Assembly (NCBI GenBank): GCA_024689485.1
Contig: JAILDK010000056.1
Coordinates: 1-40,292, forward strand
Source: Fibrobacter sp.
Lineage (GTDB): Bacteria > Fibrobacterota > Fibrobacteria > Fibrobacterales > Fibrobacteraceae
Reading direction: 5' to 3'
DNA length: 40,292 bases
Part shown: piece after piece, positions 335-30,682 of the stretch
Layout: each line of letters opens with the position of its first letter
How positions within the stretch are numbered: position 1 is the stretch's first letter
Made by a program: the position numbers and the translations under genes
The notes under the pieces: generated by a model
What the model was told of the DNA's origin: nothing
The model's database searches: none
The model's input: the letters and a program-made list of their open reading frames with translations, nothing else

Positions 335-3049
335 ATGGCAAAGGCACCTGCAAATTCTAATTTGTATGGGATGATTTTGCGCCTTGTTTTAATTCTCGCC
401 GTATGTCTTGCGGGCATGATTTCTTGTACAGATGAAGCTTCGACAGCGGACTCTTTGACAGCGTCTTATGACGACATGCAGCGCATTGTTTCGCAGGGGG
501 ATTCGGTTCAAATTCCTGCGGTGAATATCATATCCCGTTTTTCGTACAACTTTTATATCGACGTGCATGAAGTCACGGTGGGTGAATATGCGAAAATTCT
601 GAACGCATCTTTTGATTCTGACGAAAAAGATTATCCGGTTACCGACGTCTCTTTTTACGACGCAGTCTTCTTTGCAAACGAAAAGTCCAAGGCGATGGAA
701 CTCGATACCGTTTACAGCTATGAAGGACTTTCCCGATCCTCAGACGGGCACATCATTTACCTCGAAAATTTCACCACCAACTTCCAATCGAACGGCTACC
801 GCTTACCGACAGAAGCCGAATGGATTTACGCCGCTCAAAAAGGTTGGAATCCTTCGAAAAACGCTTGGACTTCTGAAAATTCCGATTTTGAAAAGCACAA
901 GGTTTGTGAACTTTCCAAAGACAAGAACGATCTCTGCGACATGGCCGGCAACGTTCTCGAATGGACTAACGACTGGCTCTCGAACACTCAGAACGCAACG
1001 GTCGAAAATTTCGCCGGAGCATCTGCTCCCAATTCTTTGAGCGAAGTGGTGGTCAAAGGCGGAAGTTACCGAAATGCGGCCAAAAACATCAACTTAAAGA
1101 ATCGTGGAGACGTTTACACGGTTTCCCCTCCGATGCACGCTGCTTATGTCGGATTCCGTTTAGTCCGTGGCGTTGTGGATTTTGTTCAGCAACTGGAAGA
1201 AGAGAACAGAGCTTCTCAGGCATGGAACATTCAAGCTTTGACTTCTGCAACGGAACTGAAGAATAAGTTGGGAGTCTTGAATTCCGTTTTGGCTTTCCGC
1301 GATGATGAAACGGGAAACCTTGGATATATCCGTTTTGCATCTTCCAATCCGACTGTTGTCGAAATCGTGGATACATTGGATGTTTACCATCCGACGATTT
1401 CTCCGGACGGCTCTAAAATTGCCTTCTGCACCAAGCCAGAAGGGATTTCGGGAAATTCCAGCTTGTACGTGCGCGACTTGAACGAAACAGGCTCGAATTT
1501 GGTGAGGCTCGATGTGGAAAGCGCGGCAATTCCGCGTTGGCGTGTACTCGGCGCGGATACACAGATTGTTTATGTGACAAGCGCCGCGAATAATTCGAAT
1601 GAAGCGGAATGGAAACTTGCTTCGACATGGAGCGTCCCTTTTGCGAACGGAACTTTTGGAACGCCGACAAAAATTTTGGACGGTTCTTACAACGGCGGTG
1701 TTTTGAACGACGGAACCTTGGCGGTCAGCGGAGCGAGACTGCTCCGTGCCAAGGTGAATGACCGTGAAGAAGTTTGGTTAAATGGGGAACAGGCTTGCAA
1801 CGCCTCTCTTTCCGAAATTTCGCATCAGGTTTTGTTCCTCGATTTTGGAAGTTCTACCGGGGAAAATTTTTCGGGAGAATCTTATTCGCCGCATAAGCAG
1901 CTCCTGGTAGCAGACACGAGTGGAAATTTGACCGCGATGATTCCTGCTCCGGAACATTACACGTTTGATCATACGGAATGGGTGGAAAACAGTCCGAATT
2001 ATGCCGTGGCAACACTCACCGATGACGACGGAGCGCATTCGAAAATCGTTTTGATTCACACAGCGGATTCTTCTGTCACGGAGATCGCTTCTGGCAATGA
2101 ACTGTGGCATCCGAATTTGTGGACAGACGCTTTGGAAGCCAATCAGCAGATGGATATCGACTTGGACAGTGCTGGGGTCTATGTCTTTAGGGGAGATGAA
2201 TTTGTCTATCAATTCTTGCGAGTCAAGATGGAACTTTTTTGGAACCGAGCGGATTCTTTAGAAGTGGTCTGCTTGGGAAGTTCACGTGTGGAAGATGGAA
2301 TTATCGCTCAAAAATTAGACTCGTCCTATGCTACAGTGAATTTGGGACATCCCGACAATACGCTTTCCTTTACTTTATTCATTGCGGAAAATTACGTCTT
2401 GAATCATGCCCACAAGTTGAAAGCGATTGTCATCGCATTGGATATCGATATTTGGCAGGCTTATGAAAACGTCCATCTCGATCAATTCCAAAAATACCCA
2501 GGCACGGTCTATGATCGAAACCATTACTATTGGAAAAATGGAACTCCGTCCTATTTCCCACAAATGGTTCAATCCTCCTACGCAGAACCCAATATTCGAA
2601 ATACCTATCTAAGCACATTAGGTTATAGCGCTTTGGAACCTCAAGGTTGGGGTGAAGTCGCCGAAGTCAATGTGGATTCTATGTGGGCTTCTATCCATCC
2701 GGAAATTATCGACGCGCAATGGTTGCTGTTGGAAAATTTCTTGTCTCTTACAAAAAACCAGGGAATTCCTGTCGTCGGCATCATTTTCCCGCAGTCTCCA
2801 TTGTACAAAGAAACGGGTTCTTTTGGCCGTTACGGTCCACAGCGTTCGGTGGCCGCTTCCATCATCGAGCGCTTAAATGCACTGCAAAAAAACTATCCGA
2901 ATTTCGTTCTGATGGACGAAAACAAAATGGGCAATCATGATTATTCCGATGCCATGGCGTATGGTCTTGATCACTTGGCGACTCCTGGTGCAGAGCAATT
3001 GACGGACCGTTTGGATTCTGTTTTGAGAACTTTGGAGACTTTCCAGTGA
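335..3049 (+). CDS. TIGR02171-type lipoprotein: FGE-like fold, TolB-like propeller, SGNH-like domain
   Basis: 904 aa. A hydrophobic segment (residues 14-30) followed by Cys31 suggests a lipoprotein, although the lipobox (MIS before Cys) is imperfect. An in-frame ATG at 371 gives a more compact signal peptide; neither start has a good ribosome-binding site. Residues about 70-280 have the formylglycine-enzyme/sulfatase-modifying fold (RLPTEAEW, CDMAGNVLEW, VVKGGSYR, GFRLVRG), but the catalytic cysteines expected after GGS are absent, so oxidase activity is unlikely. Residues about 340-590 contain PD40/TolB-like strands (HPTISPDGSKIAF). Residues about 610-904 look SGNH-like: LGSSRVEDG near 647 as block I and DHLATPGA near 878 as a putative Asp/His block. 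The architecture and length fit the Fibrobacter paralogous family TIGR02171, function unknown. The next gene overlaps by 4 bp. Confidence 0.85.
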   Translation: MAKAPANSNLYGMILRLVLILAVCLAGMISCTDEASTADSLTASYDDMQRIVSQGDSVQIPAVNIISRFSYNFYIDVHEVTVGEYAKILNASFDSDEKDYPVTDVSFYDAVFFANEKSKAMELDTVYSYEGLSRSSDGHIIYLENFTTNFQSNGYRLPTEAEWIYAAQKGWNPSKNAWTSENSDFEKHKVCELSKDKNDLCDMAGNVLEWTNDWLSNTQNATVENFAGASAPNSLSEVVVKGGSYRNAAKNINLKNRGDVYTVSPPMHAAYVGFRLVRGVVDFVQQLEEENRASQAWNIQALTSATELKNKLGVLNSVLAFRDDETGNLGYIRFASSNPTVVEIVDTLDVYHPTISPDGSKIAFCTKPEGISGNSSLYVRDLNETGSNLVRLDVESAAIPRWRVLGADTQIVYVTSAANNSNEAEWKLASTWSVPFANGTFGTPTKILDGSYNGGVLNDGTLAVSGARLLRAKVNDREEVWLNGEQACNASLSEISHQVLFLDFGSSTGENFSGESYSPHKQLLVADTSGNLTAMIPAPEHYTFDHTEWVENSPNYAVATLTDDDGAHSKIVLIHTADSSVTEIASGNELWHPNLWTDALEANQQMDIDLDSAGVYVFRGDEFVYQFLRVKMELFWNRADSLEVVCLGSSRVEDGIIAQKLDSSYATVNLGHPDNTLSFTLFIAENYVLNHAHKLKAIVIALDIDIWQAYENVHLDQFQKYPGTVYDRNHYYWKNGTPSYFPQMVQSSYAEPNIRNTYLSTLGYSALEPQGWGEVAEVNVDSMWASIHPEIIDAQWLLLENFLSLTKNQGIPVVGIIFPQSPLYKETGSFGRYGPQRSVAASIIERLNALQKNYPNFVLMDENKMGNHDYSDAMAYGLDHLATPGAEQLTDRLDSVLRTLETFQ

Positions 3050-5817
3050 GAATTTGGAACGCTATCTTCTTCGCTTTCTTTAGCCTCTTTTTAGCAGGCT
3101 GTTTGGAATCGTCTCCCAACACATCCAGTGAAAATAAAAGCGACGAAGAACCGACTTATTCGAACAATACCGACCCGACTCTTGACGGAATGATGTTTGT
3201 GTTTGCGGAAAATTCCCAGGCGATCCTCGGTACAAAAGATTCATCAGCCCGCGCCAATGAACGCCCGCAGATGACCGTGGATTTTGATTACAGCTTTTCC
3301 ATCGGCAAGCATGAAGTCACTTGCGAAGAATTCAATGCATACAGCAAAATGCAAATGGAATGTGCGGGAGATTCGCTACCGGTTACCAACGTCAACTATT
3401 ATGACGCAATCCTTTTTGCAAACGAAAGAAGTAAGGCAGAAGGCTTCGATACCGCATACGTTTACAGCTCCGCATTATTTGACGCAGATCATCGCTGTCT
3501 TTCGCTTGGAAATTTGAGCTTTCGCGCAGATGTCGAAGCTTATCGTCTTCCCACCGAAGCGGAATGGGTCCTTGTCGCTTCTCAAAATTGGAATCCTTCC
3601 CTAGGTTGGAATTCCGATAATTCCAAGTACAAAATTCACAAGGTTTGTACCGCTGACACGAGCGCTTCCGTCTGCGATATGGCAGGAAACGTCAGCGAAT
3701 GGGTGAACGATTGGCTGGGAAAATTCAAGGACACGACCTTGAGCAATTTTGCAGGTGCGCCGGATGGCGGAAACCTGGGCGAACGCATCATTAAAGGCGG
3801 CAGCTACCGCGACGCTCCAAGCTCTATGACCCTTTACAGCCGCGGGGATGTTTATACGGTTACCTCTTCGACGGCTGCAGAATACGTCGGCTTCCGTTTG
3901 GCAATCGGAAAAATTTCTAGTCCGACGTGGATGAGTTCTACGGGAAACGTTTCTTCTTCTGTCATCACTTCGCTTGCGAGTGCTGGGGAAATTCGCTCCT
4001 ATACAGGCTCTTACCAGAGTAAGCTTGCTTTTCGAAACGGGGAAACAGGAAATCTGGTTTACATCGATTATTCCAACGCGATTATTTCTGCAGTCGAAAT
4101 CGCAGATACGATAGACAGCTACCATCCGGATATTTCTCCCGACGGAAACCGTGTTGCATTCTGCACCAAGCCTGAAGGCATTTCGGGGACGTCAGAACTT
4201 TACGTGCGCAATCTGGATGAAACCGGTTCTAGTTTAGTGAAGCTGGATGTGGAAAGCGCAGCGATTCCGCGTTGGGCTGTTCTTGCCTCGGGTGATACCG
4301 TCATCCGCTACGTGGACGATGCGGGCAACAATACCGATGACGCCACCTTCCAATCGCATGCGCTGTGGCAAGTTCCCTTTAGCAATGGAAAATTTGGAAC
4401 GCCCGAAAAGCTTCTCGCCGGAAATTACCATGACGGCTATGACGCAGGTTCGGAATTTGCCGTTTCCGGTTCACGCCTTCTCCGCGCTTATCGAAATGGA
4501 AAAGACACCGTCTGGTATGGTGGGGAACAGGCTTGCAACGCTTCGCTTGCAAACGACGGATCCAAGCGAACGCTCTTCCTCGATTTCGGAGGCTCGATTG
4601 GCCAAAGCTTTGCAGAAACCTCTTACAACGCGCACAAAGCCCTTTTGATCGCCGACAGTACCGGAAACTTGACACAGGTAATTTCAGCTCCAGACGGCTA
4701 TACTTTTGACCACACCGAATGGATTTCTGGTTCTACGTCAAACGTCGCCATCGCTTCGCTCACCAATGATGCGGGCGCCCATCAAAAGATTGCCGTCGTC
4801 GGTTTAAGCCGCGCTAAAGTTTTTGAAATCGTCGAAGGAGAAGATCTGTGGCATCCCTGCCTGTGGGCAAAAAAGACCGAAAAAATTTCGGAATCCTTAA
4901 ACAGCGACAGCGCAGGCGTTTACTTTACTTCTGCAGGCGGAGAAGTGGATGTCATTCTGCGTTACAAGATGGAATTGCTTTGGGAATATCGCAATACTGC
5001 GAACGTATTGATTCTCGGATCATCCCGTTCCAACGCAGGCATTGCACCCAAAGAATTGGACTCCGCCTATTTTGCCATCAACGCGTCAAACGTTCCCAAT
5101 TCTCTGTATGAAACCCGTTATCTGTTCGAAAATTACGCATTGAATCACATGCCCAATCTCAAGTATTTGGTCGTCTCTTTAGACATCGACATGTGGTGGA
5201 AAAAGAAGACCGATGAAATCGAAAATTATTTCTATAAAACCTACAAGAAATCTCCCGGATTTGTCTACGATGAAAATCATGAATTTTGGAAATCCGGATA
5301 TCCGGCAGGTCTTGCAGAACGCACTGAAAATTCACCGGGTAATTCTATCTACCGCGAATGGTTGATTCCGACCCGTGGCTACAAGAACGAAGAATGCCAC
5401 GGTTGGGAAGAAGAACCTTCTATCGACAGAAGCGTAACCTGGTACGAAGAAAATCCGGCGCTTTTCCAGGCAAATGTGGACGAACTCAAGGAAATTCTCA
5501 CTCTTGCTTCCGAAAAGAGCATTACCGTTATCGGCGTGATTTTCCCGATGAGCCCAGGCTTTGCCCAAACGGAATCCTTTGGCCGTTATGGACTCAGCCG
5601 TTCCAAAGCTCCGGAACTCATCGATAGCCTTCAGAGCCTTTCGAAAACCTATACGAATTTTGTGCTGATGGATGAAAATAAAATGGGGAATCACGACTAC
5701 ACCGATGCTGCGGCCCAAAACCGCGACCATCTCTGTACCGTCGGAGCTATTCAAATGACAGGACGCTTAAATAGCCTGCTCGACTCTTTGGAACAAATCG
5801 GCGCGTCCACTCTTTAG
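3046..5817 (+). CDS. TIGR02171-type lipoprotein, second complete paralog
   Basis: 923 aa, starting at a GTG that overlaps the previous stop (GTGA), which suggests translational coupling. The signal peptide ends in a textbook lipobox (LFLAGC, Cys19). Domain order is the same as in the upstream paralog: FGE-like fold with RLPTEAEW, CDMAGNVSEW and IIKGGSYRDA (again without cysteines after GGS), TolB-like propeller (HPDISPDGNRVAF), then an SGNH-like domain with ILGSSRSNAG near residue 657 and DHLCTVGA near 894. The KPEGISG and LDVESAAIPRW blocks are nearly identical between the two copies, pointing to recent duplication or gene conversion. Likely outer-membrane anchored. An esterase or acyltransferase-like role for the last domain is only an inference from fold-level motifs. 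Confidence 0.85.
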   Translation: MRIWNAIFFAFFSLFLAGCLESSPNTSSENKSDEEPTYSNNTDPTLDGMMFVFAENSQAILGTKDSSARANERPQMTVDFDYSFSIGKHEVTCEEFNAYSKMQMECAGDSLPVTNVNYYDAILFANERSKAEGFDTAYVYSSALFDADHRCLSLGNLSFRADVEAYRLPTEAEWVLVASQNWNPSLGWNSDNSKYKIHKVCTADTSASVCDMAGNVSEWVNDWLGKFKDTTLSNFAGAPDGGNLGERIIKGGSYRDAPSSMTLYSRGDVYTVTSSTAAEYVGFRLAIGKISSPTWMSSTGNVSSSVITSLASAGEIRSYTGSYQSKLAFRNGETGNLVYIDYSNAIISAVEIADTIDSYHPDISPDGNRVAFCTKPEGISGTSELYVRNLDETGSSLVKLDVESAAIPRWAVLASGDTVIRYVDDAGNNTDDATFQSHALWQVPFSNGKFGTPEKLLAGNYHDGYDAGSEFAVSGSRLLRAYRNGKDTVWYGGEQACNASLANDGSKRTLFLDFGGSIGQSFAETSYNAHKALLIADSTGNLTQVISAPDGYTFDHTEWISGSTSNVAIASLTNDAGAHQKIAVVGLSRAKVFEIVEGEDLWHPCLWAKKTEKISESLNSDSAGVYFTSAGGEVDVILRYKMELLWEYRNTANVLILGSSRSNAGIAPKELDSAYFAINASNVPNSLYETRYLFENYALNHMPNLKYLVVSLDIDMWWKKKTDEIENYFYKTYKKSPGFVYDENHEFWKSGYPAGLAERTENSPGNSIYREWLIPTRGYKNEECHGWEEEPSIDRSVTWYEENPALFQANVDELKEILTLASEKSITVIGVIFPMSPGFAQTESFGRYGLSRSKAPELIDSLQSLSKTYTNFVLMDENKMGNHDYTDAAAQNRDHLCTVGAIQMTGRLNSLLDSLEQIGASTL

Positions 5818-12527: not shown

Positions 12528-14126
12528 TTAGAACTGCTGAGTGGCGTACTTCACTTCTTCGATCTTCTTCAGAACGGAGCCGTCTTCCATCGCCTTCATT
12601 GCCATGTCGTAGCCTTCCTTCACCGTCTTCGCCTTGTTGCTAATATAAAGGGCTGCACCCGCATTCAAAGCGCAGGCATACTTGATGCCCGGGCGACCCT
12701 TGCCATTCAACAGATCCATGGCGAGCGCAAAGTTGTCTGCGCCTGTACCCCCGGCGAGATCTTCCGGGTCCACAGACGGAACGCCGAATTCCTTCGGATC
12801 CAAGCGGTATTCGCGGTAAACGCCATCTTCAAGAATTTCTGCAATCGTCGACGGAACGCACGGAGAAATTTCGTCATAGCCGTCATCGCTGATGGCGACC
12901 ATCACACGCTTTGCACCGAGAGCCTTCGCCGCCTTGGTAAACGGTTCAAGCACCGATTTGCTGTAAACACCGAGCATCAAGTACTTCGCTTCAGCCGGGT
13001 TCGTGAGAGGTCCAAGCAGGTTCATAATGGTCTTCACGCCCAGGGCTGCACGCACCGGCGCCGCAAAGCGCATGGCACTGTGGTAAACCGGAGCCATGAG
13101 GAACACAAAGTTCGTCTTGTCGATGACCGTTGCAGCCTGTGCCGGCGTCATATCAAGCTTAAAGCCAGCCGCTGTATAGAAGTCCGCAGCACCCGACTTA
13201 CTCGAAACAGCGCGGTTACCATGCTTTGCCACCTTTGCACCGCAAGTTGCGGCGATCAGGCCCGAAAGGGAACTCACGTTAAAGCTTCCCTTTCCGTCGC
13301 CACCCGTACCCACGATATCCGTGAGTTCGGCCCCGCTGTACGGGAAACGGCGCTTCTTCTTGTTCAGCACGTAAGCGCAGCCGGCGATTTCGTCTGCCAC
13401 AGGGCCCTTGGCAAAGAGAGCGGTCAAGATGCCCGCCATCTGACGTTCATCCATAATGCCGTCTGTCAGATCTTCCATAAAGAGTTCTGCCGTTTTACGG
13501 GTCAGATCCTTACCGTCCATGAGCGTATTCAAAATACCACGCACATCGAGCGGTTCGCGACGGTAGTTGAGGAAAGCCTTGAAGAATTCATCAGCACGGC
13601 CGCTTGCAATGGATTCCGGATGGAACTGCACGCCTTCAATCGGCATCGTCTTGTGGCGAATGCCCATAATGTCGCCGTCCGTCGCACGTGCGGTGATTTC
13701 AAAATCCGAAGGAAGCGTCGATTCATCAATCACAAGACTGTGGTAACGCGTAAAGATGTTCTTCTTGCCGATGGTGCGGAAAAGGCCCTTGCCGTCCAAG
13801 TCAATTTCTTCTGCAATGCCATGCTTAATGAACTTCGCCTGCACAATCTTTGCGCCAAAGGCGTAGCCGATTGCCTGGTGACCGAGGCACACGCCGAGAA
13901 TCGGAAGCTTTCCTGCAAAGTGCTTGATCGCTTCCACGGAAATGCCTGCATCTTCCGGACGACCCGGACCCGGGCTCACGATCAAACGGCTCGGATTCAA
14001 TGCTTCAATTTCCTGGACGGTGCATTCACGGCTGCGGAGCACGCGAATTTCTTCCGGGGTGATTTTTGCCAGCGCCTGATAGACGTTGTAAGTAAAGGAA
14101 TCGTAGTTGTCGATAATGACGATCAT
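12528..14126 (-). CDS. trpGD: Anthranilate synthase glutaminase / anthranilate phosphoribosyltransferase fusion (TrpGD)
   Basis: 532 aa from the ATG at 14126, preceded by AGGAG (minus strand, 14136-14140) lying inside the end of trpE. Residues 1-190 are the TrpG amidotransferase: IIDNYDSFTYN, SPGPGRPEDAG, nucleophile Cys80 in LGVCLGHQAIG, and the His169/Glu171 pair in GVQFHPES. Residues about 196-532 are TrpD, which attaches phosphoribosyl pyrophosphate to anthranilate: GTGGDGKGSFNVSS (273 onward), KHGNRAVSSKSGAADF, FLMAPVYHSAM and NLLGPLTNPA. The same fusion is known from Escherichia coli. It catalyses part of the first step and all of the second step of tryptophan synthesis. No trpC, trpF, trpB or trpA follows; a terminator does, so those genes are elsewhere. 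One base separates it from trpE. Confidence 0.95.
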   Translation of the reverse strand: MIVIIDNYDSFTYNVYQALAKITPEEIRVLRSRECTVQEIEALNPSRLIVSPGPGRPEDAGISVEAIKHFAGKLPILGVCLGHQAIGYAFGAKIVQAKFIKHGIAEEIDLDGKGLFRTIGKKNIFTRYHSLVIDESTLPSDFEITARATDGDIMGIRHKTMPIEGVQFHPESIASGRADEFFKAFLNYRREPLDVRGILNTLMDGKDLTRKTAELFMEDLTDGIMDERQMAGILTALFAKGPVADEIAGCAYVLNKKKRRFPYSGAELTDIVGTGGDGKGSFNVSSLSGLIAATCGAKVAKHGNRAVSSKSGAADFYTAAGFKLDMTPAQAATVIDKTNFVFLMAPVYHSAMRFAAPVRAALGVKTIMNLLGPLTNPAEAKYLMLGVYSKSVLEPFTKAAKALGAKRVMVAISDDGYDEISPCVPSTIAEILEDGVYREYRLDPKEFGVPSVDPEDLAGGTGADNFALAMDLLNGKGRPGIKYACALNAGAALYISNKAKTVKEGYDMAMKAMEDGSVLKKIEEVKYATQQF

Positions 14127-14127
14127 T

Positions 14128-15537
14128 TTAATTTTCTCCTTCCAGCACGGCGCGGATGGCACCCAATTTCTCGTTCGTTTCTTCGAATTCACGTTCGGCG
14201 TTAGAAGCTGCGACAATGCCGCCGCCAGCCTGCAAGCTGATCGTCTTGCCCTGCTTCAAGCAGCAACGAATAGCAATGCAAAAGTCCAAATCGCCGTCGG
14301 ATTCCATGTAGCCCACAGCACCCGCGTAGAAGCGACGCTTGACTTTTTCAAGGCCAGAAAGAATTTCGATAGCGCTGATTTTCGGAGCGCCGCTCACCGT
14401 TCCCGCCGGGAAGCTCGAACGCAAGACTTCAATCGCCTTCTTGCCCTTCGAAACCTTACCCTGCACATCGGAAACAAGGTGAATCACATGGCTGAACTTT
14501 TCGCAATCCATGTACTTGGTCGTTTCCACGGTACCCGCTTCGCAAACGCGGCCGAGATCGTTGCGGGCAAGATCCACGAGCATCAAATGTTCTGCGCGTT
14601 CCTTCGGATCGCCCTTCAAATTCTTGATGAGTGCTTCATCTTCCGCTTCATCCTTACCGCGGCGACGTGTACCGGCAATCGGGTGAATCGTAGCAACGCC
14701 TTCGCGCACACGCACAAGGCTTTCCGGCGAAGCACCGATAAACTGATGCGTACCATAGTCGAGGTAGAACATGTACGGCGACGGGTTCACCGTGCGGAGT
14801 CGGCGGTAAACGTCCAACGCTTCGATGTCGCTTGCAAACTGGACGCGACGAGAAGGAACCGCCTGCACAATGTCGCCTGCGATAATGTGCTTCTGCAATT
14901 CCGCAACCTTTGCCACGTATTCCTTGCGAGACTTTTCGATGTCCGTCATCGTGATGCCCTTGCTGTATTTGGCTTCCGGGGCGAGATAGCTGAAGTCCAG
15001 ATCCGCGAGGCGCTTCTTGATGTTTTCAATCGCAGACGGCAAATCGATCTGGTGTTCTTCGTAGTTCAAAGCGAACAGGTGAAGCTTTTCGGTAAAGTGG
15101 TCAAAGACAATGTAAATGTGACCGATCAAGAATTCCGCTTCCGGAATGTTCAATTCGTCGACCTGCGGGGCAAGGCGAATCGTATCGCAGCGGGCGCAGA
15201 ATTCATAACCGAGGTATCCCACGCCCGAAGAGGGAATTGGGATCTGGTTAGGCGGAACCGTATTTTCCGCAGAAATCTTCAGGAGGGCGTCGAGAATGTC
15301 GCCTTCGCCTTCCTTCAAAAAGACGCTTTCCTTGCCGTCTACGACAATGCTCACATCCTTTTCATTCTGACGCAAGCGGAAGCCTTCGTCCACCATCAAA
15401 GTGGAATAACGGCTGCGTCCATGCGCAAAGCTCGCCGATTCAAAGATTGCCTTAGCGCCGAGCTTCTTCGCCAGGGAGAATGGGGTGTAACGTTCACCGG
15501 GGAGCGCTACATAGATGCTGTCTGTTCTTTCGGTCAT
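14128..15537 (-). CDS. trpE: Anthranilate synthase component I (TrpE)
   Basis: 469 aa from the ATG at 15537, chosen for its AAGGAAG ribosome-binding site (15543-15549); an in-frame ATG at 15570 lies at the foot of the attenuator and has none. It makes anthranilate from chorismate with ammonia supplied by TrpG. Chorismate-binding core: FIGASPES, IAGTRRRGKDEAED, LARNDLGRV, SFPAGTVSGAPK, YAGAVGYM, CIAIRC and QAGGGIVAASNAEREFEET. Near the N-terminus, IFESASF (Glu33, Ser34) matches the LLES-type element involved in feedback inhibition by tryptophan, so allosteric control is likely retained. First structural gene of the operon, controlled by the leader upstream. Confidence 0.95.
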   Translation of the reverse strand: MTERTDSIYVALPGERYTPFSLAKKLGAKAIFESASFAHGRSRYSTLMVDEGFRLRQNEKDVSIVVDGKESVFLKEGEGDILDALLKISAENTVPPNQIPIPSSGVGYLGYEFCARCDTIRLAPQVDELNIPEAEFLIGHIYIVFDHFTEKLHLFALNYEEHQIDLPSAIENIKKRLADLDFSYLAPEAKYSKGITMTDIEKSRKEYVAKVAELQKHIIAGDIVQAVPSRRVQFASDIEALDVYRRLRTVNPSPYMFYLDYGTHQFIGASPESLVRVREGVATIHPIAGTRRRGKDEAEDEALIKNLKGDPKERAEHLMLVDLARNDLGRVCEAGTVETTKYMDCEKFSHVIHLVSDVQGKVSKGKKAIEVLRSSFPAGTVSGAPKISAIEILSGLEKVKRRFYAGAVGYMESDGDLDFCIAIRCCLKQGKTISLQAGGGIVAASNAEREFEETNEKLGAIRAVLEGEN

Positions 15538-15570
15538 GATTTCTTCCTTGTTGAAAATTCCTTGTGGCAT

Positions 15571-15600
15571 AAAAAAAGGCCCCGATTTAATATCGGAGCC
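15571..15600 (-). terminator. trp attenuator (Rho-independent terminator in the trpE leader)
   Basis: On the minus strand a 9-bp stem (GGCTCCGAT with ATCGGGGCC, one G-U pair) and a five-base loop are followed by seven T, directly before trpE. The left arm (CTCCGAT, 15592-15598) is also complementary to ATCGGAG at 15648-15654 inside the leader peptide gene. That gives a mutually exclusive antiterminator. Confidence 0.88.
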
Positions 15601-15623
15601 GCATCTGCCTTCTTTTATGATTT

Positions 15624-15639
15624 TTGATCAAATGATCAA
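15624..15639 (-). promoter_or_regulatory. Small palindrome at the end of the trp leader peptide
   Basis: 7-bp arms (TTGATCA and TGATCAA) with a two-base centre, overlapping the leader stop codon (15636-15638). It lies between the two antiterminator segments and could stack them together or act as a pause hairpin. Role inferred only. Confidence 0.4.
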
Positions 15640-15710
15640 CACGCGTACTCCGATTTCGAAGTGCGCCACCACCAGTTGTTGCCGTTGAGTGTGATGATCG
15701 TATTATTCAT
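15636..15710 (-). CDS. trpL: trp operon leader peptide (24 aa, three consecutive Trp)
   Basis: Short frame from the ATG at 15710 to the TGA at 15636-15638, encoding MNNTIITLNGNNWWWRTSKS followed by EYAC. Three tandem TGG codons (13-15) in 24 residues are very unlikely by chance. The peptide sits immediately before a terminator that precedes trpE, which is the hallmark of ribosome-mediated attenuation. A ribosome stalled on the Trp codons would leave ATCGGAG (codons 19-21) free to pair with the terminator's left arm; a ribosome that reaches the stop codon would cover it. No strong ribosome-binding site is visible. Confidence 0.85.
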   Translation of the reverse strand: MNNTIITLNGNNWWWRTSKSEYAC

Positions 15711-15711
15711 A

Positions 15712-15747
15712 CGCAAAGAAAATAAAAAAGCTTTTTCGCTATGGCAA
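15712..15747 (-). promoter_or_regulatory. Candidate trp operon promoter (weak)
   Basis: On the minus strand TTGCCA, a 17-base spacer and TATTTT lie just before the leader peptide ATG. The implied transcript start is only a few bases before that ATG, giving an almost leaderless message, so the true promoter may be slightly further upstream. Confidence 0.3.
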
Positions 15748-23440: not shown

Positions 23441-26400
23441 TTAACGGCGACGCTTGTTGCCCTTCTTCGCATCCGAAGAAGAAGAAGACTTCGGCGTTTC
23501 GTTACCGGAATTGCGGATGTCCTTCATCTTGAAGTTCACGTTGATTTCAGCGGTTTCCACCTTGGAGGAAGCGCCTTCCTTATCCGTGAGCTTGAAGCCG
23601 AATTCGTCGAGGCCGTAGAAGCCCTTATTCGGCTTGTACACGAAGGAACCATCCTTTTCATTGATTTCGACCTTACCGTTCTGCGGGCGACGAACGAGCG
23701 AGACGCGAGCGTCCAGCTTGCCATCCGGGTCGAAAGCACCTTCGAGGAGGCCTTCCTTCGCATTCACGTTCAGCGTTTCGCCTTCCTTCGTCTGGTAAGA
23801 CTTGGACATAGCGACCGGAGGATCGTTCACCGGAATAACGGTAAACTTCGCAGAGGTCTTGGCGGAAGCGCCTTCCGGGTCCGTCACCGTGAAGGTGATC
23901 GTTTCCGGAGCACCATTCCAGTGTTCATACGGCTGCTTGATCGTCACAATGTTACGAGCCTTGTCGTGATCGACAACGAGCTTCTTGTTGCCCGTAATCG
24001 TCCACTTGAGTTCGTTAAAGCTGTTGTCGCGGTCACGCACGTACTGGTCGAGCTTGAGCGTTGCGAGAACGCCCTTGTTCGCATCTTCGCGCATCGTCAC
24101 GTCGTGGATCGGACGGATTTCCGGAACCGCATTCACATGCTTCACTTCGAAATTCACCGGAACCTTTGCCACTGCACCAGCCGGATCCTTCACGATGAAC
24201 GTGATGGTTTCCTTGCCGAACCAGTCTGCACGGCTCGGGCGAACGATCGCTTCGCGACCGCCGTTGATCATCACTTCGAGGTGACGGTTGCCAGAGATAG
24301 ACCAGCGAAGTTCATTCGGCTTGTGGTCCGGATCCTTCACATACTTGTCGAGCTTGATCGGAGCAAACTTCTTGCCTTCATTCGTCACCATGTCCGGAAT
24401 CTTGGAGAGTACCGGAGGATCGTTCACCGGAATCACCACGAACTGGATGTCGAGAGAAGCCTTTTCGCCAGACGGATCATAAGCGTTGACCTTCACCTGG
24501 TCCTTACCGTTCCAATACTTATTCGGGATCGTCACGGTCAAGACACCAGCGTCAGAGATATCGTAAGAGAGCGGATGCTTCACGGTCGGGCGCTTTGCCT
24601 TACCCATGCGGCCACGCTTATCCTTCTTAGCCGGTTCACCGTCATCGATAGACCAGCTGAGGTCGGAAGCGTCATTATCCGGATCCACAACGAGCTTCGA
24701 GAGATCGATCGGGGAGAACTGATTCTTTTCCTTGATCTGCTGAACCGGGAGCTTGTTGAAGTGCGGCGGGTCGTTCACCGGGGTCACCTTGAACGTGCTC
24801 TTCACACTTGCACCAGCACCAGCCGGATCCTTCGCCGTGAAGACGACAGTTTCCGTACCGTTCCAGTATTCATCCGGAGTCGTGATGTTCACACGAGAAC
24901 CGCGGATATCGAACTTGAGAGCCTTGTTACCAGAAACAACCCAAGTGATTTCATTCGGACGGTTATCCGGGTCGCTCACATACTTCGAAAGATCGATCGG
25001 AGCGAAGCGTTCCTTTTCCTTAATGGTCTGGCCCGGGATAGCCTTGAGCACCGGAGCATCATTCACCGGAGTCACGGTGAAGACGAGCTGCTGAACATCA
25101 CGGCCACCTTCCGGATCGCGGACGGTCACATTGATCTTTTCAGAACCGTTCCAGTACTTGTCCGGAGTCGTCACAACGAGCTGGTTCTTCTTATTGATAG
25201 AAGCCTTGAGGCCGCGCGGCTGAGAGACTTCGAAGGTCAGAGCGGACTTCGAATGATCCGGATCCTTCACGTAGTCGAGGAGGTTGATCGGAGCGAAGTG
25301 TTCCTTTTCCTTGATCGTCTGGTTCGGAATCTTGTCGAATGTCGGAGGATCGTTCACCGAGAGGACTTCGAGATTGATCGTCTTGGAATCCTTCGCGCCT
25401 TCCGGGTCAGCCACGGTGAAGGTCACCGAGCGCTTGCCGTTCCAGTACTTGTTCGGGACAGCGATGTGAGCGACATGCTTGTCGTCAATCGTCACGGTCA
25501 AATCGTCAGCCTTCTTTTCTTCAGCCTTCGGTTCTTCCTTCGCCTTCTTGCCCTTCTTCGCCTTCTTCTTCGGAGCCGGAGCAGGAGCGTCAGCGTTCTT
25601 CACAACTGCAGTCCAGGTCAGCTGACTGTTACGATGGTCAGCATCATGCACAAAGTTGTCGAGCGGAATATCCTTGAACTGAGCCTTTTCCTTGATGGTC
25701 TGGCTCGGAATGTCCTTCAGAACCGGAGCGTCGTTCACCGAGGTGATTTCGAAGGTCACCATCGTCGAAGCAGAAGCACCCTTCGGATCCGAGACCGTGA
25801 GAGTCAAGGTTTCCGGCTTGCACCAGAAGTACTTGTTCGGAGCAGAGACAACGAGCTTTCTTGCAGAAGTGATTTCTGCCTTCAAGTTCTTGTTGCCAGA
25901 GACATTCCACTTCATTTCGGACGGCTTGTTGTCCGGATCCTTCACGAATTCATCGAGAGCGACCGGCTTGAAGGTTTCCTTTTCCTTGATCTTCTGGCTC
26001 GGAATCTTGGAGAGCACAGGAGGATCGTTCACTTCCGTCACGACGAAGTCCATCTTATGAGATGCCTTGCCGCCTTCCGGATCGGTTACCGTGAAGGTAA
26101 TCGTTTCCTTACCGTGCCACTGAGCATCCGGGACCTTCACCTGAACAGTGTTGTCCTTGTTCAAAGTCACCTTGAGCTGACGATTGCCCTGGAAGCTCCA
26201 CTTGAGCTGCTTTGCAGAGTGGTCTGCATCCGTAGCGAGAGTAGAGAGGTCGATCGTCTTGAACGTGCCGCCTTCGCGGATCGTTTCGCCCTTCGGAGCG
26301 TTAGCCGAAATCACCGGAATATCGTTAATGGACTTCACCGTGAAGGTAGCAGAAGAGCTAGCCTTTGCACCTTCCGGGTCCGTTGCCGTGAAGGTAATCT

Positions 26401-29400
26401 TCGCAGCACCGTTCCAGTACTTGTTCGGAATCACGATCTTGGCAACGTGATTATTATCGATATTCACCGTCAGGCCATCTGCAGAAGAGGATTCTTCTTC
26501 ATCAGCAGCCTTCTTACCCTTCTTACCCTTCTTCGGAGCCGGGTTTGCATTCACCTTAGAGACCTTGTAGGTCCACTGGATCGCGTTCAGCTTGTGGTCC
26601 GGATCCTTGATCATATCGTCAAGCTTGATCGGAGCAAACTGCTTCTTTTCATCGATCGTCTGATCCTTGAGTTCGCGCACAAAGACCGGCGGATCGTTCA
26701 CAGAGATCACTTCGAAGGTTACCGTGCGGGAATCCTTCGCGCCTTCCGGATCCATCACCGTGAAGGTCACGGTTTCCTTACCGTACCAGTACTTGTTCGG
26801 AGTCTTGATCGAAACCTTGTGGCTCGGGGTCATGGCAAACTTGAGAACCTTGTTACCCTGAATATCCCACTTGAGCTTGTTCTTCGGATGGTCGAGATCG
26901 GAAACGTAATCATCCAATTCGATATCCTTGAATTCCTGCTTTTCCTTGATGGTCTGGCCCGGAATATCCTTCATCACCGGAGGATCGTTCACAGACTTTG
27001 CCGTGAGCTGAACCGTCTGGCGAGACGATGCGCCGGCCGGGTCGGTCACCATGAAGGTCACCTTTTCAGAGCCGTTCCAGAGCTTATTCGGGGTCTTGAT
27101 CGAAGCCACGCCATCCTTCGAGATGGAGATCTTCAAATCCTTATTGCCGGTAATCGTCCACTTGAGAGACTTGAACGAATCATCCGGATCCTTCACAAGT
27201 TCTGCAAGGTTGATGTCCTTGAATTCTTCCTTTTCGACAATGATCTGGTCATTGATCTTTGCAAGAACCGGAGCATCGTTGATGGACTTCACCGTGAAGG
27301 TAGCCGTCTGGGAAGCCTTGCCGCCTTCCGGATCCGTCACGACGAATTCGATTTCATTCGAACCATTCCAATACTTATCCGGAGCGACAACCGTAGCGAC
27401 GAGAGTCTTCGGATCGACCTTCACCGTCAAACCGTTCTTTGCACCCTTGACATTGAATGCCCAGGTGAGGTCCTGAATCTTGTGATCCGGATCCTTCACG
27501 ATTTCAGCGAGCTTGATCGGAGCGAACTGCTTCTTTTCATCGATCGTCTGGTCGTTGATCTTCTTCACGAATTCCGGAGCGTCGTTCACCGATTCCACGG
27601 TGAAGGTCACCTTGCGAGAATCCTTTGCACCTTCCGGGTCCACGACTTCGAAGACGAAGGTTTCAGAACCGTGCCAGTACTTGTCCGGGATAATCACAGA
27701 GAATTCATGCTGCGGATCAATCTTGAACTTGAGATCCTTATTGCCCGTGATATTCCACTTGAGCTTGCTATTCGGATGGTCGAGATCCTTGACGTAGTCG
27801 TCCAACTTGATCGCCTTGAACTGACCCTTTTCCTTGATCGTCTGAGACGGGATGTCCTTCATGACCGGAGCGTCGTTGATGGACTTCACCGTAAAGACAG
27901 CGGTCTGCTTTGCGGAAGCACCTTCCGGGTCCGTCACCGTGAAGGTGATCTTTTCAGAACCGTTCCAGAGCTGATTCGGAATCACGATGGTTGCCGTACC
28001 GGCCTTGTCGATATTGACCTTGAGATCCTTGTTGCCAGAGATCGTCCACTTGAGCTGATCGAAGGAGTGGTCTGCATCGGAAACGAGTTCGGCGAGGTTG
28101 ATCGGGGCGAACTGAGCCTTTTCATCAATCGTCTGAGACTTGATTTCCTTGAGTTCCGGAGCGTCATTCACCGACTGCACCGTGAAGGTTGCCGATTCAG
28201 AGGTCTTAGCACCTTCCGGGTCCGTCACCGTAAAGGTCACGACGTTTGCACCGTTCCAGAACTTGTTCGGAATTGCAATCGTTGCCACGAGCTTTGCATC
28301 GAGATTCACCTGGAGATCGCCCTGGGTGTTCTTCACGCCCGGAGCCGGCTTCACATCGACAGCAACAGTGAGGTCAGAAAGCTTGTGGTCCGCATCCTTG
28401 ACCATTTCACCCAAGTTGATAGTCTTGAACTGAGACTTTTCCTTGATTGTCTGATCCTGAATCTTCTTGACAAATTCCGGAGCGTCGTTCACCGATTCCA
28501 CGGTGAAGTTAACGGTACGTTCGTCAGAAGCGCCTTCCGGGTCCGTGACCTTGAAGGTAATCGCTTCAGAACCGTGCCAGTACTTGCTCGGGAGCTTGAA
28601 GGAAGCCTTGCGGTTTGCATCGAGGGAAACCTTGATGTCCTTGTTGCCCGTGATCGTCCACTTCAGCTGATTTGCGGCGTGGTCGAGATCGCTCACGAAC
28701 TTATCGAGTTCAACCGGCTTGAATTCTTCCTTTTCCTTGATCGTCTGAGACGGGATGTCCTTCATGACCGGAGCGTCGTTGATGGACTTCACCGTGAACT
28801 TGACCGTTGCAGAAGCCTTGCCGTTATCCGGGTCGGTAGCGGTGAAGGTCACCGTTTCGGAACCGTTCCAGTTGATGTCCGGAGTCTGGATGGAGACCAT
28901 GCGGTTGTTGTCCACATTGACCTTCAATTCCTTGTTGCCAGAAACGGAAATCTTCAACTGAGAAAGATCGTGGTCTGCATCAGAGAGATAATCGTCGAGA
29001 GCAAAGCCATCGAACATCGCCTTTTCTTCAATCGTCTGATCCGGAATCTTCTTGAAGACCGGGAGATCGTTGATCGAGCGGACGGTGAGCTTCACTTCCT
29101 GCTTGGCTTCAGCGCCTTCCGGGTCAATCACCTTGAACGTTGCGACAGCGGCGCCGTTCCAATAGGTGTCCGGAATTTCAACCTTAGCGACATGCTTTTC
29201 GTCGATGTTCACAAAGAGCGGGCCAGTCGGATGTTCCTTGCCAACGCTCTTCACTTCGACTTCCCAAGAAAGTTCTTCCTTCTTGTGGTCGTCATCCTTC
29301 ACAAATTCATCGAGGTTAATTTGTGCGAACTGCTTCTTTTCATCAATCGTCTGAGCCGGGATCTGCTTCACGAACTGCGGAACGTCGTTCACAGATTCGA

Positions 29401-30682
29401 CAGTGAAGTTTGCCTGAGCCTCAGCACTTGCACCTTCCGGATCCGTGACCTTGAAGTTGATCGTTTCGGAGCCATTCCAAAGAGCGTTCGGAATCAAAAT
29501 CTTTGCCGTCTTACCCGCAAGCTGGACCTTGAGATCCTTGTTGCCAGAGAATTCCCACTTCAGTTGTTCGAACTTGTGGTCAATATCCTTGACATACTTG
29601 CTGAGATCGATCGGCTGGAACTGCTGCTTTTCCTGGATTGTCTGATCCGGAATCATTTCAACAAATTCCGGAGCGTCGTTCACAGACTTCACCGTGAAAG
29701 AAGTCTTGAAGCTTGCAGAAGCGCCCTTCGGATCGGTTGCCTTGAATTCAAACGTTTCGGTCGGGCCATTCCAGTTTTCGTTCGGAATGACGACTTCGGC
29801 AACGCCGTACTTGTCGATCTTGACCTTCAGGTCCTTTCCGCCAGAAACAGACCACTTGATCTTCGAAACGTCATCATCGACGTCGCTGACGAGGTCAGAA
29901 AGGTTGATCGGTTCAAACTGTTCCTTTTCATTGATCGTCTGATCCGGAGCCTTCTGAACGATCGGAGCGTCATTGATCGGATTGACCGTGAAGTTTGCAT
30001 CGGTCTTAGCGGAAGCGTATTCGCCATCCGTCGCAATGAACGTAATCTTATATGCGCCGTACCAGTTCGTATCCGGAACGACGACGTTAGCGATGCGGTC
30101 CTTCGAAATTTCGACGGAGAGTTCGCCTTCTGCCTGATCCTTTGCAATCGGGGTCAGTTCATATTCCCAAGCGATCTGATCCTTCGGATGATCGACGTCT
30201 TCAACATAGTTGTCGAGCTTAATCGGGGCAAACTTCTTGCCTTCATCGATCGTCTGGTCAGGGATCTTCGAAACGACCGGCGGGTTGTTCACCGATTCGA
30301 CTGTGAAATTCACGGTTTCAGAGCTCGAAGCACCCTTTGTATCTGTAACAGTAAACGTGATGTCTTCAGAACCGTTCCAATATTGGTTCGGGGCCTGAAT
30401 GGTCACCACGTGTTTGTCTTCTTTCACTACCAGATTCTTATTACCGGTAATCTTCCACTTAAGAGCTTCAGGAGCATCTTCAGGATCACTGACAAATTCA
30501 TCCAATTTAATGGGGGCGAATTTACCACCTTCTTGAATCGATTCTCCCGGAATGCCATTCAGGGATGGGGGATTATTTTCAGAAGCCGGCTGAGCTTCCT
30601 GCGGGGCATCTTGTGCAAATGCACCACTAGCAAGCACTGCCGCTGTTAAAAACAATGCAGATACTGATTTCTTTTGACTCAT
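23441..30682 (-). CDS. Giant secreted protein of about 23 cadherin/Ig-like tandem domains
   Basis: 2413 aa. The ATG has GGAG eight bases upstream. The signal peptide ends SGAFA, giving a mature N-terminus QDAPQEAQ. From about residue 42 the protein is almost only tandem domains of 95-105 residues (longer where loops are inserted): each opens with QTIxEKxxFxPI, has DxDH, LKWTITGNKDLKV, a PNKYWNGSE strand, FTVTDPEGA, and closes with FTVKSVNDAP. The NDAP and DxDH elements resemble cadherin calcium-binding sites. Domains 2, 5, 8, 11, 14, 17 and 20 are long forms, so the true unit is three domains. Domain 23 is divergent (YKPNKGFYGLDEFGF), the common tandem-95/Big_9 type. The tail is Ser-rich, then basic (KKGNKRRR). 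No sorting domain or catalytic motif is seen. Likely a long surface or matrix adhesin; role unproven. Confidence 0.88.
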   Translation of the reverse strand: MSQKKSVSALFLTAAVLASGAFAQDAPQEAQPASENNPPSLNGIPGESIQEGGKFAPIKLDEFVSDPEDAPEALKWKITGNKNLVVKEDKHVVTIQAPNQYWNGSEDITFTVTDTKGASSSETVNFTVESVNNPPVVSKIPDQTIDEGKKFAPIKLDNYVEDVDHPKDQIAWEYELTPIAKDQAEGELSVEISKDRIANVVVPDTNWYGAYKITFIATDGEYASAKTDANFTVNPINDAPIVQKAPDQTINEKEQFEPINLSDLVSDVDDDVSKIKWSVSGGKDLKVKIDKYGVAEVVIPNENWNGPTETFEFKATDPKGASASFKTSFTVKSVNDAPEFVEMIPDQTIQEKQQFQPIDLSKYVKDIDHKFEQLKWEFSGNKDLKVQLAGKTAKILIPNALWNGSETINFKVTDPEGASAEAQANFTVESVNDVPQFVKQIPAQTIDEKKQFAQINLDEFVKDDDHKKEELSWEVEVKSVGKEHPTGPLFVNIDEKHVAKVEIPDTYWNGAAVATFKVIDPEGAEAKQEVKLTVRSINDLPVFKKIPDQTIEEKAMFDGFALDDYLSDADHDLSQLKISVSGNKELKVNVDNNRMVSIQTPDINWNGSETVTFTATDPDNGKASATVKFTVKSINDAPVMKDIPSQTIKEKEEFKPVELDKFVSDLDHAANQLKWTITGNKDIKVSLDANRKASFKLPSKYWHGSEAITFKVTDPEGASDERTVNFTVESVNDAPEFVKKIQDQTIKEKSQFKTINLGEMVKDADHKLSDLTVAVDVKPAPGVKNTQGDLQVNLDAKLVATIAIPNKFWNGANVVTFTVTDPEGAKTSESATFTVQSVNDAPELKEIKSQTIDEKAQFAPINLAELVSDADHSFDQLKWTISGNKDLKVNIDKAGTATIVIPNQLWNGSEKITFTVTDPEGASAKQTAVFTVKSINDAPVMKDIPSQTIKEKGQFKAIKLDDYVKDLDHPNSKLKWNITGNKDLKFKIDPQHEFSVIIPDKYWHGSETFVFEVVDPEGAKDSRKVTFTVESVNDAPEFVKKINDQTIDEKKQFAPIKLAEIVKDPDHKIQDLTWAFNVKGAKNGLTVKVDPKTLVATVVAPDKYWNGSNEIEFVVTDPEGGKASQTATFTVKSINDAPVLAKINDQIIVEKEEFKDINLAELVKDPDDSFKSLKWTITGNKDLKISISKDGVASIKTPNKLWNGSEKVTFMVTDPAGASSRQTVQLTAKSVNDPPVMKDIPGQTIKEKQEFKDIELDDYVSDLDHPKNKLKWDIQGNKVLKFAMTPSHKVSIKTPNKYWYGKETVTFTVMDPEGAKDSRTVTFEVISVNDPPVFVRELKDQTIDEKKQFAPIKLDDMIKDPDHKLNAIQWTYKVSKVNANPAPKKGKKGKKAADEEESSSADGLTVNIDNNHVAKIVIPNKYWNGAAKITFTATDPEGAKASSSATFTVKSINDIPVISANAPKGETIREGGTFKTIDLSTLATDADHSAKQLKWSFQGNRQLKVTLNKDNTVQVKVPDAQWHGKETITFTVTDPEGGKASHKMDFVVTEVNDPPVLSKIPSQKIKEKETFKPVALDEFVKDPDNKPSEMKWNVSGNKNLKAEITSARKLVVSAPNKYFWCKPETLTLTVSDPKGASASTMVTFEITSVNDAPVLKDIPSQTIKEKAQFKDIPLDNFVHDADHRNSQLTWTAVVKNADAPAPAPKKKAKKGKKAKEEPKAEEKKADDLTVTIDDKHVAHIAVPNKYWNGKRSVTFTVADPEGAKDSKTINLEVLSVNDPPTFDKIPNQTIKEKEHFAPINLLDYVKDPDHSKSALTFEVSQPRGLKASINKKNQLVVTTPDKYWNGSEKINVTVRDPEGGRDVQQLVFTVTPVNDAPVLKAIPGQTIKEKERFAPIDLSKYVSDPDNRPNEITWVVSGNKALKFDIRGSRVNITTPDEYWNGTETVVFTAKDPAGAGASVKSTFKVTPVNDPPHFNKLPVQQIKEKNQFSPIDLSKLVVDPDNDASDLSWSIDDGEPAKKDKRGRMGKAKRPTVKHPLSYDISDAGVLTVTIPNKYWNGKDQVKVNAYDPSGEKASLDIQFVVIPVNDPPVLSKIPDMVTNEGKKFAPIKLDKYVKDPDHKPNELRWSISGNRHLEVMINGGREAIVRPSRADWFGKETITFIVKDPAGAVAKVPVNFEVKHVNAVPEIRPIHDVTMREDANKGVLATLKLDQYVRDRDNSFNELKWTITGNKKLVVDHDKARNIVTIKQPYEHWNGAPETITFTVTDPEGASAKTSAKFTVIPVNDPPVAMSKSYQTKEGETLNVNAKEGLLEGAFDPDGKLDARVSLVRRPQNGKVEINEKDGSFVYKPNKGFYGLDEFGFKLTDKEGASSKVETAEINVNFKMKDIRNSGNETPKSSSSSDAKKGNKRRR
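24117..30560 (-). repeat. Seven copies of a three-domain (about 301-codon) higher-order repeat
   Basis: Coding repeats inside the giant gene. Near-identical DNA segments recur exactly 903 bp apart: GATGTCCTTCATGACCGGAG at 27851 and 28754, and ATTCCGGAGCGTCGTTCACC at 27571 and 28474. 903 bp equals 301 codons, or three domains. Each triplet is short domain, long domain, short domain. The copies in the middle are most alike; end copies have diverged. Confidence 0.82.

Follow-up and report, generated by a model that had tools for sequence, protein, structure and literature searches.

The trpE-trpGD locus and its leader frame

The window, i.e., the whole stretch of 40,292 nucleotides that was analysed, comes from a rumen-type bacterium of the Fibrobacter family and carries a two-gene trp unit on its minus strand, and a short Trp-rich frame with several RNA elements lies ahead of it. 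In the direction of transcription, the following features were assigned:

15719-15747, minus strand: predicted sigma-70-type promoter with -35 TTGCCA (15747-15742), a 17-nt spacer and -10 TATTTT (15724-15719)
15636-15710, minus strand: leader peptide frame MNNTIITLNGNNWWWRTSKSEYAC of 24 codons, from ATG at 15710 to the stop TGA at 15638-15636; kept in relatives
15666-15674, minus strand: control codons, three consecutive Trp codons; WW or WWW in the leader of every relative
15657-15666, minus strand: segment 1 (GCG.ACTTCG), 5' arm of the 1:2 hairpin (-11.6 kcal/mol)
15641-15654, minus strand: segment 2 (AUCGGAGU-A-CGCGU), partner of segment 1 or segment 3
15592-15604, minus strand: segment 3 (AUGCG-GCUCCGAU), antiterminator arm on the 3' side; the final 9 nt double as the left arm of the terminator
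15571-15600, minus strand: 3:4 Rho-independent terminator with a 9-bp stem (15600-15578), loop ATTAA and T7 (15577-15571), -15.7 kcal/mol
14128-15537, minus strand: trpE, anthranilate synthase component I, with Shine-Dalgarno AAGGAAG and ATG at 15537
12528-14126, minus strand: trpGD, fused anthranilate synthase component II and anthranilate phosphoribosyltransferase (NF011201, 792 bits, over the cut-off)

The best NCBIfam model for trpE was TIGR00564 (trpE_most) with 480.9 bits, which is under the model cut-off of 517.7. The gene is the sole Chorismate_bind match in the genome, and no separate pabB was seen in this search. The naive longest open reading frame would place the trpE start at 15570; this start was rejected in favour of 15537 with its AAGGAAG Shine-Dalgarno sequence.

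The leader ahead of trpE reads ATGAATAATACGATCATCACACTCAACGGCAACAACTGGTGGTGGCGCACTTCGAAATCGGAGTACGCGTGTTGA on the minus strand and encodes MNNTIITLNGNNWWWRTSKSEYAC. The original prediction had described a 24-codon frame with three consecutive Trp codons at this place, and all of its coordinates check on the minus strand. The distance between leader and terminator also agreed, as 35 bases separate the stop codon from the stem. The antiterminator segment had been placed about four codons beyond the Trp run and begins 11 nt after it, just under four codons. Consecutive Trp codons in a short frame that could be translated stand ahead of a trp gene. When the 313-nt upstream region was subjected to dinucleotide shuffling, an ATG frame of up to 45 aa with WWW occurred in none of 20,000 shuffles, and one with WW in 0.3%. 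The WWW frame ahead of trpE is thus not a product of chance.

Mutually exclusive structures and their conservation

The leader strand folds with -50.4 kcal/mol compared to -34.0 ± 3.7 kcal/mol for its shuffles (z = -4.5), and none of the 200 shuffles was as stable. Between leader and trpE lies the terminator, GGCTCCGAT-ATTAA-ATCGGGGCC-T7. The complementarity of ATCGGAG (15654-15648) to CTCCGAT (15598-15592), from which an antiterminator had been proposed, was confirmed. The claim of a complete attenuator held for leader, antiterminator and terminator, but the antiterminator is longer than claimed and a further hairpin had been overlooked. In the 2:3 antiterminator, AUCGGAGU-A-CGCGU pairs with AUGCG-GCUCCGAU over 8 + 5 pairs (-19.6 kcal/mol), while in the overlooked 1:2 hairpin 15666-15657 pairs with 15652-15643 and sequesters segment 2 when free. 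This hairpin completes the classical attenuator layout.

Antiterminator and terminator are mutually exclusive, and according to the computed folds a ribosome on the Trp codons would free the antiterminator. As long as segment 4 was absent, a ribosome at the first, second or third Trp codon gave the antiterminator as the minimum-energy fold, in line with the original prediction. A ribosome placed at the stop codon left no helix other than the terminator. As soon as segment 4 was present and no constraint was set, the fold favoured the terminator, so control would hinge on which event comes first, just as the classical model has it.

The nearest relatives that bear a name are Fibrobacter MAGs, which agrees with the phylum. 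One condition that would have refuted the original prediction did not arise, as relatives keep a Trp-rich frame ahead of trpE across the Fibrobacteraceae and in a sister family (f2): of the 72 genomes with window-type TrpE, 70 have a leader frame with WW or WWW before the gene. The Fibrobacterota genomes compared are related, so leader counts do not equal independent events. In the two exceptions (G103 and G123), trpE lies behind trpB-trpA, and a WWW leader of its own heads that operon before trpB. The leader was also found before quite different TrpE in two Fibrobacteraceae (G044, MNNANLTFRRWWWPL; G146, MQVQYIVNGFWWWSLS) and before trpE of another family (G166, MKTSNNKVLMWWWQGNITSLERAFIAN); in a further family (G167), trpE is probably preceded by a GTG-started leader. 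No such leader was seen before the different trpE of genus g4 of the Fibrobacteraceae and of most other Fibrobacterota families. Likewise, no such frame was found upstream of approximately 40 Treponema trpE loci, whose TrpE is 60-66% identical, and these loci constitute a natural negative control. Weak WW frames before distant trpE genes of other families (e.g., L100 of G039) were discarded; the promoter and terminator layout is absent there.

A terminator is present in 80 of 82 leaders; in the remaining two, both from f2, a stem is there but its T tract is interrupted. Paired covariation, proposed as a check in relatives, was found as well: segments 2 and 3 remain complementary while their sequence varies. 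For 24 representative leaders, the pairing of each segment 2 with its own segment 3 reached a mean of -18.5 kcal/mol, as opposed to -14.1 kcal/mol for swapped partners (permutation p < 5e-5, 20,000 permutations). Examples of segment 2/segment 3 pairs are:

Window: ATCGGAG/CTCCGAT
Horse Fibrobacter type: GAGTCTGG/CCAGACTC
G146: GGATCC/GGATCC
G166: GGAGCGGG/CCCGCTTC

In most trpE leaders of Fibrobacter (g6), the 2:3 helix contains one C.A mismatch, and the antiterminator is therefore weaker.

Proposed control of trpE-trpGD and alternative readings

We assign a probability of about 93% to the reading of this locus as a ribosome-mediated transcription attenuator of trpE-trpGD. Its parts, their order and geometry, the exclusivity of the folds, conservation and compensating change are computed results; for the transcription start site, leaderless translation, stalling and the response to tryptophan, we infer the following course. 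RNA polymerase would begin at the leader ATG or immediately beside it, and the 24-codon leader, leaderless or nearly so, would be translated by a ribosome during its synthesis. A shortage of charged tRNA-Trp would make this ribosome stall on the UGG triplet and cover segment 1; segment 2 would then pair with segment 3 ahead of the synthesis of segment 4, no terminator would form, and trpE-trpGD would be transcribed. With tryptophan in good supply, the ribosome would move on to the stop codon and mask segment 2, whereupon segments 3 and 4 would form the terminator and transcription would end at the T tract near 15571.

The start of the leader transcript was placed from the promoter consensus. 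The -10 hexamer of the window ends 8 nt before the leader ATG. Each of the 73 ATG-started leaders has a best -35/-10 pair whose end lies 6-9 nt upstream of an in-frame ATG, with a consensus of mostly TTGMCR, a spacer of 17 nt (18 in two) and TANNNT. Transcription usually starts approximately 7 nt after the -10 hexamer, so that the leader mRNA should begin no more than about 3 nt from its start codon and is predicted to be leaderless or nearly so. Such a start, as predicted, would fix how the first ribosome is positioned with respect to the polymerase. Alternatively, transcription could begin farther upstream and the leader could be translated conventionally from a longer 5' UTR, with attenuation otherwise proceeding as described. 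We consider this variant unlikely, given the uniform promoter spacing in the 73 leaders and the distribution of Shine-Dalgarno-like 4-mers, which precede none of the 73 leader ATGs, unlike the trpE starts, where they were found in 63 of 73 cases.

Two other readings dispense with starvation-dependent stalling on the Trp codons. The terminator, which is indeed present, could be an ordinary one between units or a constitutive brake on trpE, with the Trp-rich frame left untranslated. However, the neighbouring gene upstream is transcribed divergently, and this strand thus holds no preceding gene that would need a terminator. Frame, promoter and terminator recur together before trpE, trpB, trpB2 and trpCF, but not before Treponema trpE, and the pairing of segments 2 and 3 is retained despite sequence change; we regard this reading as very improbable. 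Slightly less credit still is given to a TnaC-like arrest peptide, in which tryptophan or release instead of codon starvation would hold the ribosome. The recurrence of WWR and WWWQ motifs near the C-terminus in several lineages would suit such a peptide. TnaC-type control switches on a degradation operon at high Trp, whereas the target here is biosynthesis. Moreover, the leader peptides differ widely outside the Trp run, their stop codons lie 6-42 nt past it, and the geometry of the segments suits stalling at UGG codons.

A possible dispersed trp regulon, a probable exchange of trpE-trpGD and known systems

For further leaders, 168 Fibrobacterota genomes were searched with a pattern consisting of promoter, gap, ATG and TGGTGG, and the reversed pattern served as the control. 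The pattern matched in 94 of the 168 genomes, nearly all of them Fibrobacteraceae, while the reversed control gave almost no matches. Another control pattern, with a larger gap between -10 and ATG, mostly returned the same leaders via internal ATGs and otherwise scattered matches. In the genome of the window, the search returned the trpE leader and one other:

L252 2410-2630 (G000:C45), directly before trpB-trpA: second WW attenuator of the genome, with leader MKNVKNNNRWWRRA and terminator ACCTTCCGGACAATTCCGGAAGGT-T6

A trpB-trpA leader was found in all six genomes of the window's genus. In Fibrobacter (g6), leaders stand before trpB-trpA (..NSAIRFNRWWWGS..) and trpB2 (MKFVASINFWWWQAQ), and two Fibrobacter genomes have one before trpCF (MQIKMASAAKKNFANRWWWGS..); in some relatives, up to four separate gene groups carry a leader. 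A single leader heads the complete trp operon of G146, and in G057, G145 and G147, where trpE and trpB lie a few kb apart on the same strand, no second leader was seen before trpB; the number of leaders thus seems to follow the number of operons. In G145, a TPP riboswitch (RF00059, 57.1 bits; L065 120-218, minus strand) was observed within approximately 1.1 kb upstream of trpE. The genome of the window showed no Trp leader before trpCF and no His leader before hisG, and no Phe leader was found before pheA. Before trpB2, no leader was found in five genomes of the window's genus; in the window's own genome, the contig begins approximately 44 bases before this gene. Neither TrpR (PF01371) nor a T-box (RF00230) was detected in the 31 genomes searched.

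The window TrpE is 93-94% and TrpGD 89% identical to the Fibrobacter proteins, and both are only 63-66% identical to those of G140 and G141 from the same genus. TrpB and TrpA, by comparison, follow the genus: TrpB reaches 83-89% within it versus 80-81% to Fibrobacter, and TrpA 83-86% (partial matches) versus 60-61%. On the DNA level, the similarity to Fibrobacter sets in at trpE codon 5 and lasts through the end of trpGD (12528-15525 of the window), and the window leader is of the genus type (WWWRTSxSEYAC or near) that is common to G140 and G141. In the simplest reading of these sequence comparisons, horizontal transfer, the direction of which is not proven, replaced trpE-trpGD from a break shortly after the trpE start (around codon 5) and left the native attenuator in place. 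If the leader stayed while the genes behind it were exchanged, regulator and enzyme genes would seem to evolve as modules that can be separated. On a wider scale, TrpE has probably moved between gut phyla, namely between Fibrobacteraceae and Treponema. In the comparison for L146-L191, TrpE of most Fibrobacteraceae was 60-66% identical to Treponema TrpE, compared to 36-39% to TrpE of other Fibrobacteraceae such as G044 and G146.

Altogether, we lean towards a dispersed trp regulon in the Fibrobacteraceae that would operate without TrpR or T-box through separate attenuators with leaderless leaders (on trpE-GD and trpB-A, in Fibrobacter also on trpB2 and in two genomes on trpCF). The leader would be a module that multiplied as the operon split and stayed in place while trpE-trpGD was exchanged horizontally.

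With regards to known systems, no Rfam family, T-box included, matched in the window at its gathering threshold. The top match was Trp_leader (RF00513) with 25.2 bits (E 0.0046), where the gathering score of 41 was not reached. The window leader would work like RF00513 and is not a member by that model. It shares with the enterobacterial trp leader (trpL) the Trp-codon leader, segments 1 to 4 and the terminator ahead of trpE, and TGGTGGCGCAC(C/T)TC, which surrounds the Trp codons, is similar to the RF00513 consensus. At the Trp codons, the window stretch 15674-15657, TGGTGGCGCACTTC (peptide WWRTS), closely matches that consensus, either through convergence or through an old relationship. In contrast to enterobacterial trpL, the window leader is predicted to be leaderless, its stop codon lies past segment 2 in the window's genus, TrpR was not found in the 31 genomes searched, further trp operons carry leaders, and the window trpE is of a non-proteobacterial type.

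In Sinorhizobium meliloti, the 5' end of trpL (rnTrpL) lies at the trpL ATG, i.e., the leader is leaderless, and trpE(G) is attenuated without transcriptional repression; one of three trp operons is attenuated, and trans roles for RNA and peptide were reported (PMC7298713). The window resembles this case in the probable attenuation of its trpE and in its leader, which is predicted to be leaderless, but differs in that only one trp operon is attenuated in S. meliloti. Streptomyces lividans trpL1 is likewise a leaderless leader (MFAHSTRNWWWTAHPAAH) with a terminator ahead of trpE (PMC8079986). Unlike the window, this system is actinobacterial, and its other Trp attenuator acts on trpS instead of a trp biosynthetic operon. 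For Corynebacterium diphtheriae, an attenuator was predicted at each of two separate trp operons (PMC1262725), whereas Fibrobacter reaches three kinds of units, plus trpCF in two genomes, with the same spacing from promoter to ATG. Attenuation of trp genes, leaderless leaders and multiple trp attenuators are all precedented elsewhere, and for leaderless leaders the S. meliloti and S. lividans cases are experimental. For the phylum Fibrobacterota, no report was found; the search for Fibrobacter and trp attenuation covered the open-access literature, with subscription papers outside its scope. Our analysis places classical trp attenuation in the Fibrobacterota, which are important gut fibre degraders, and provides a family-wide data set (>70 genomes with several parallel leaders each) on the co-evolution of attenuator segments.

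Apart from the trp locus, the window encodes a 2413-aa protein (23441-30682, minus strand) with many similar repeats (..TIxEKxxFxPIxLxxxVxDxDH...WNGSExITFTVTDPEGA...SVNDAP) and a Ser-rich basic C-terminus. On the plus strand, 335-5817 encodes two paralogues in tandem (904 and 923 aa), each of which by eye seemingly combines a sulfatase-modifying-factor-like N-terminal part with a TolB-like middle part.
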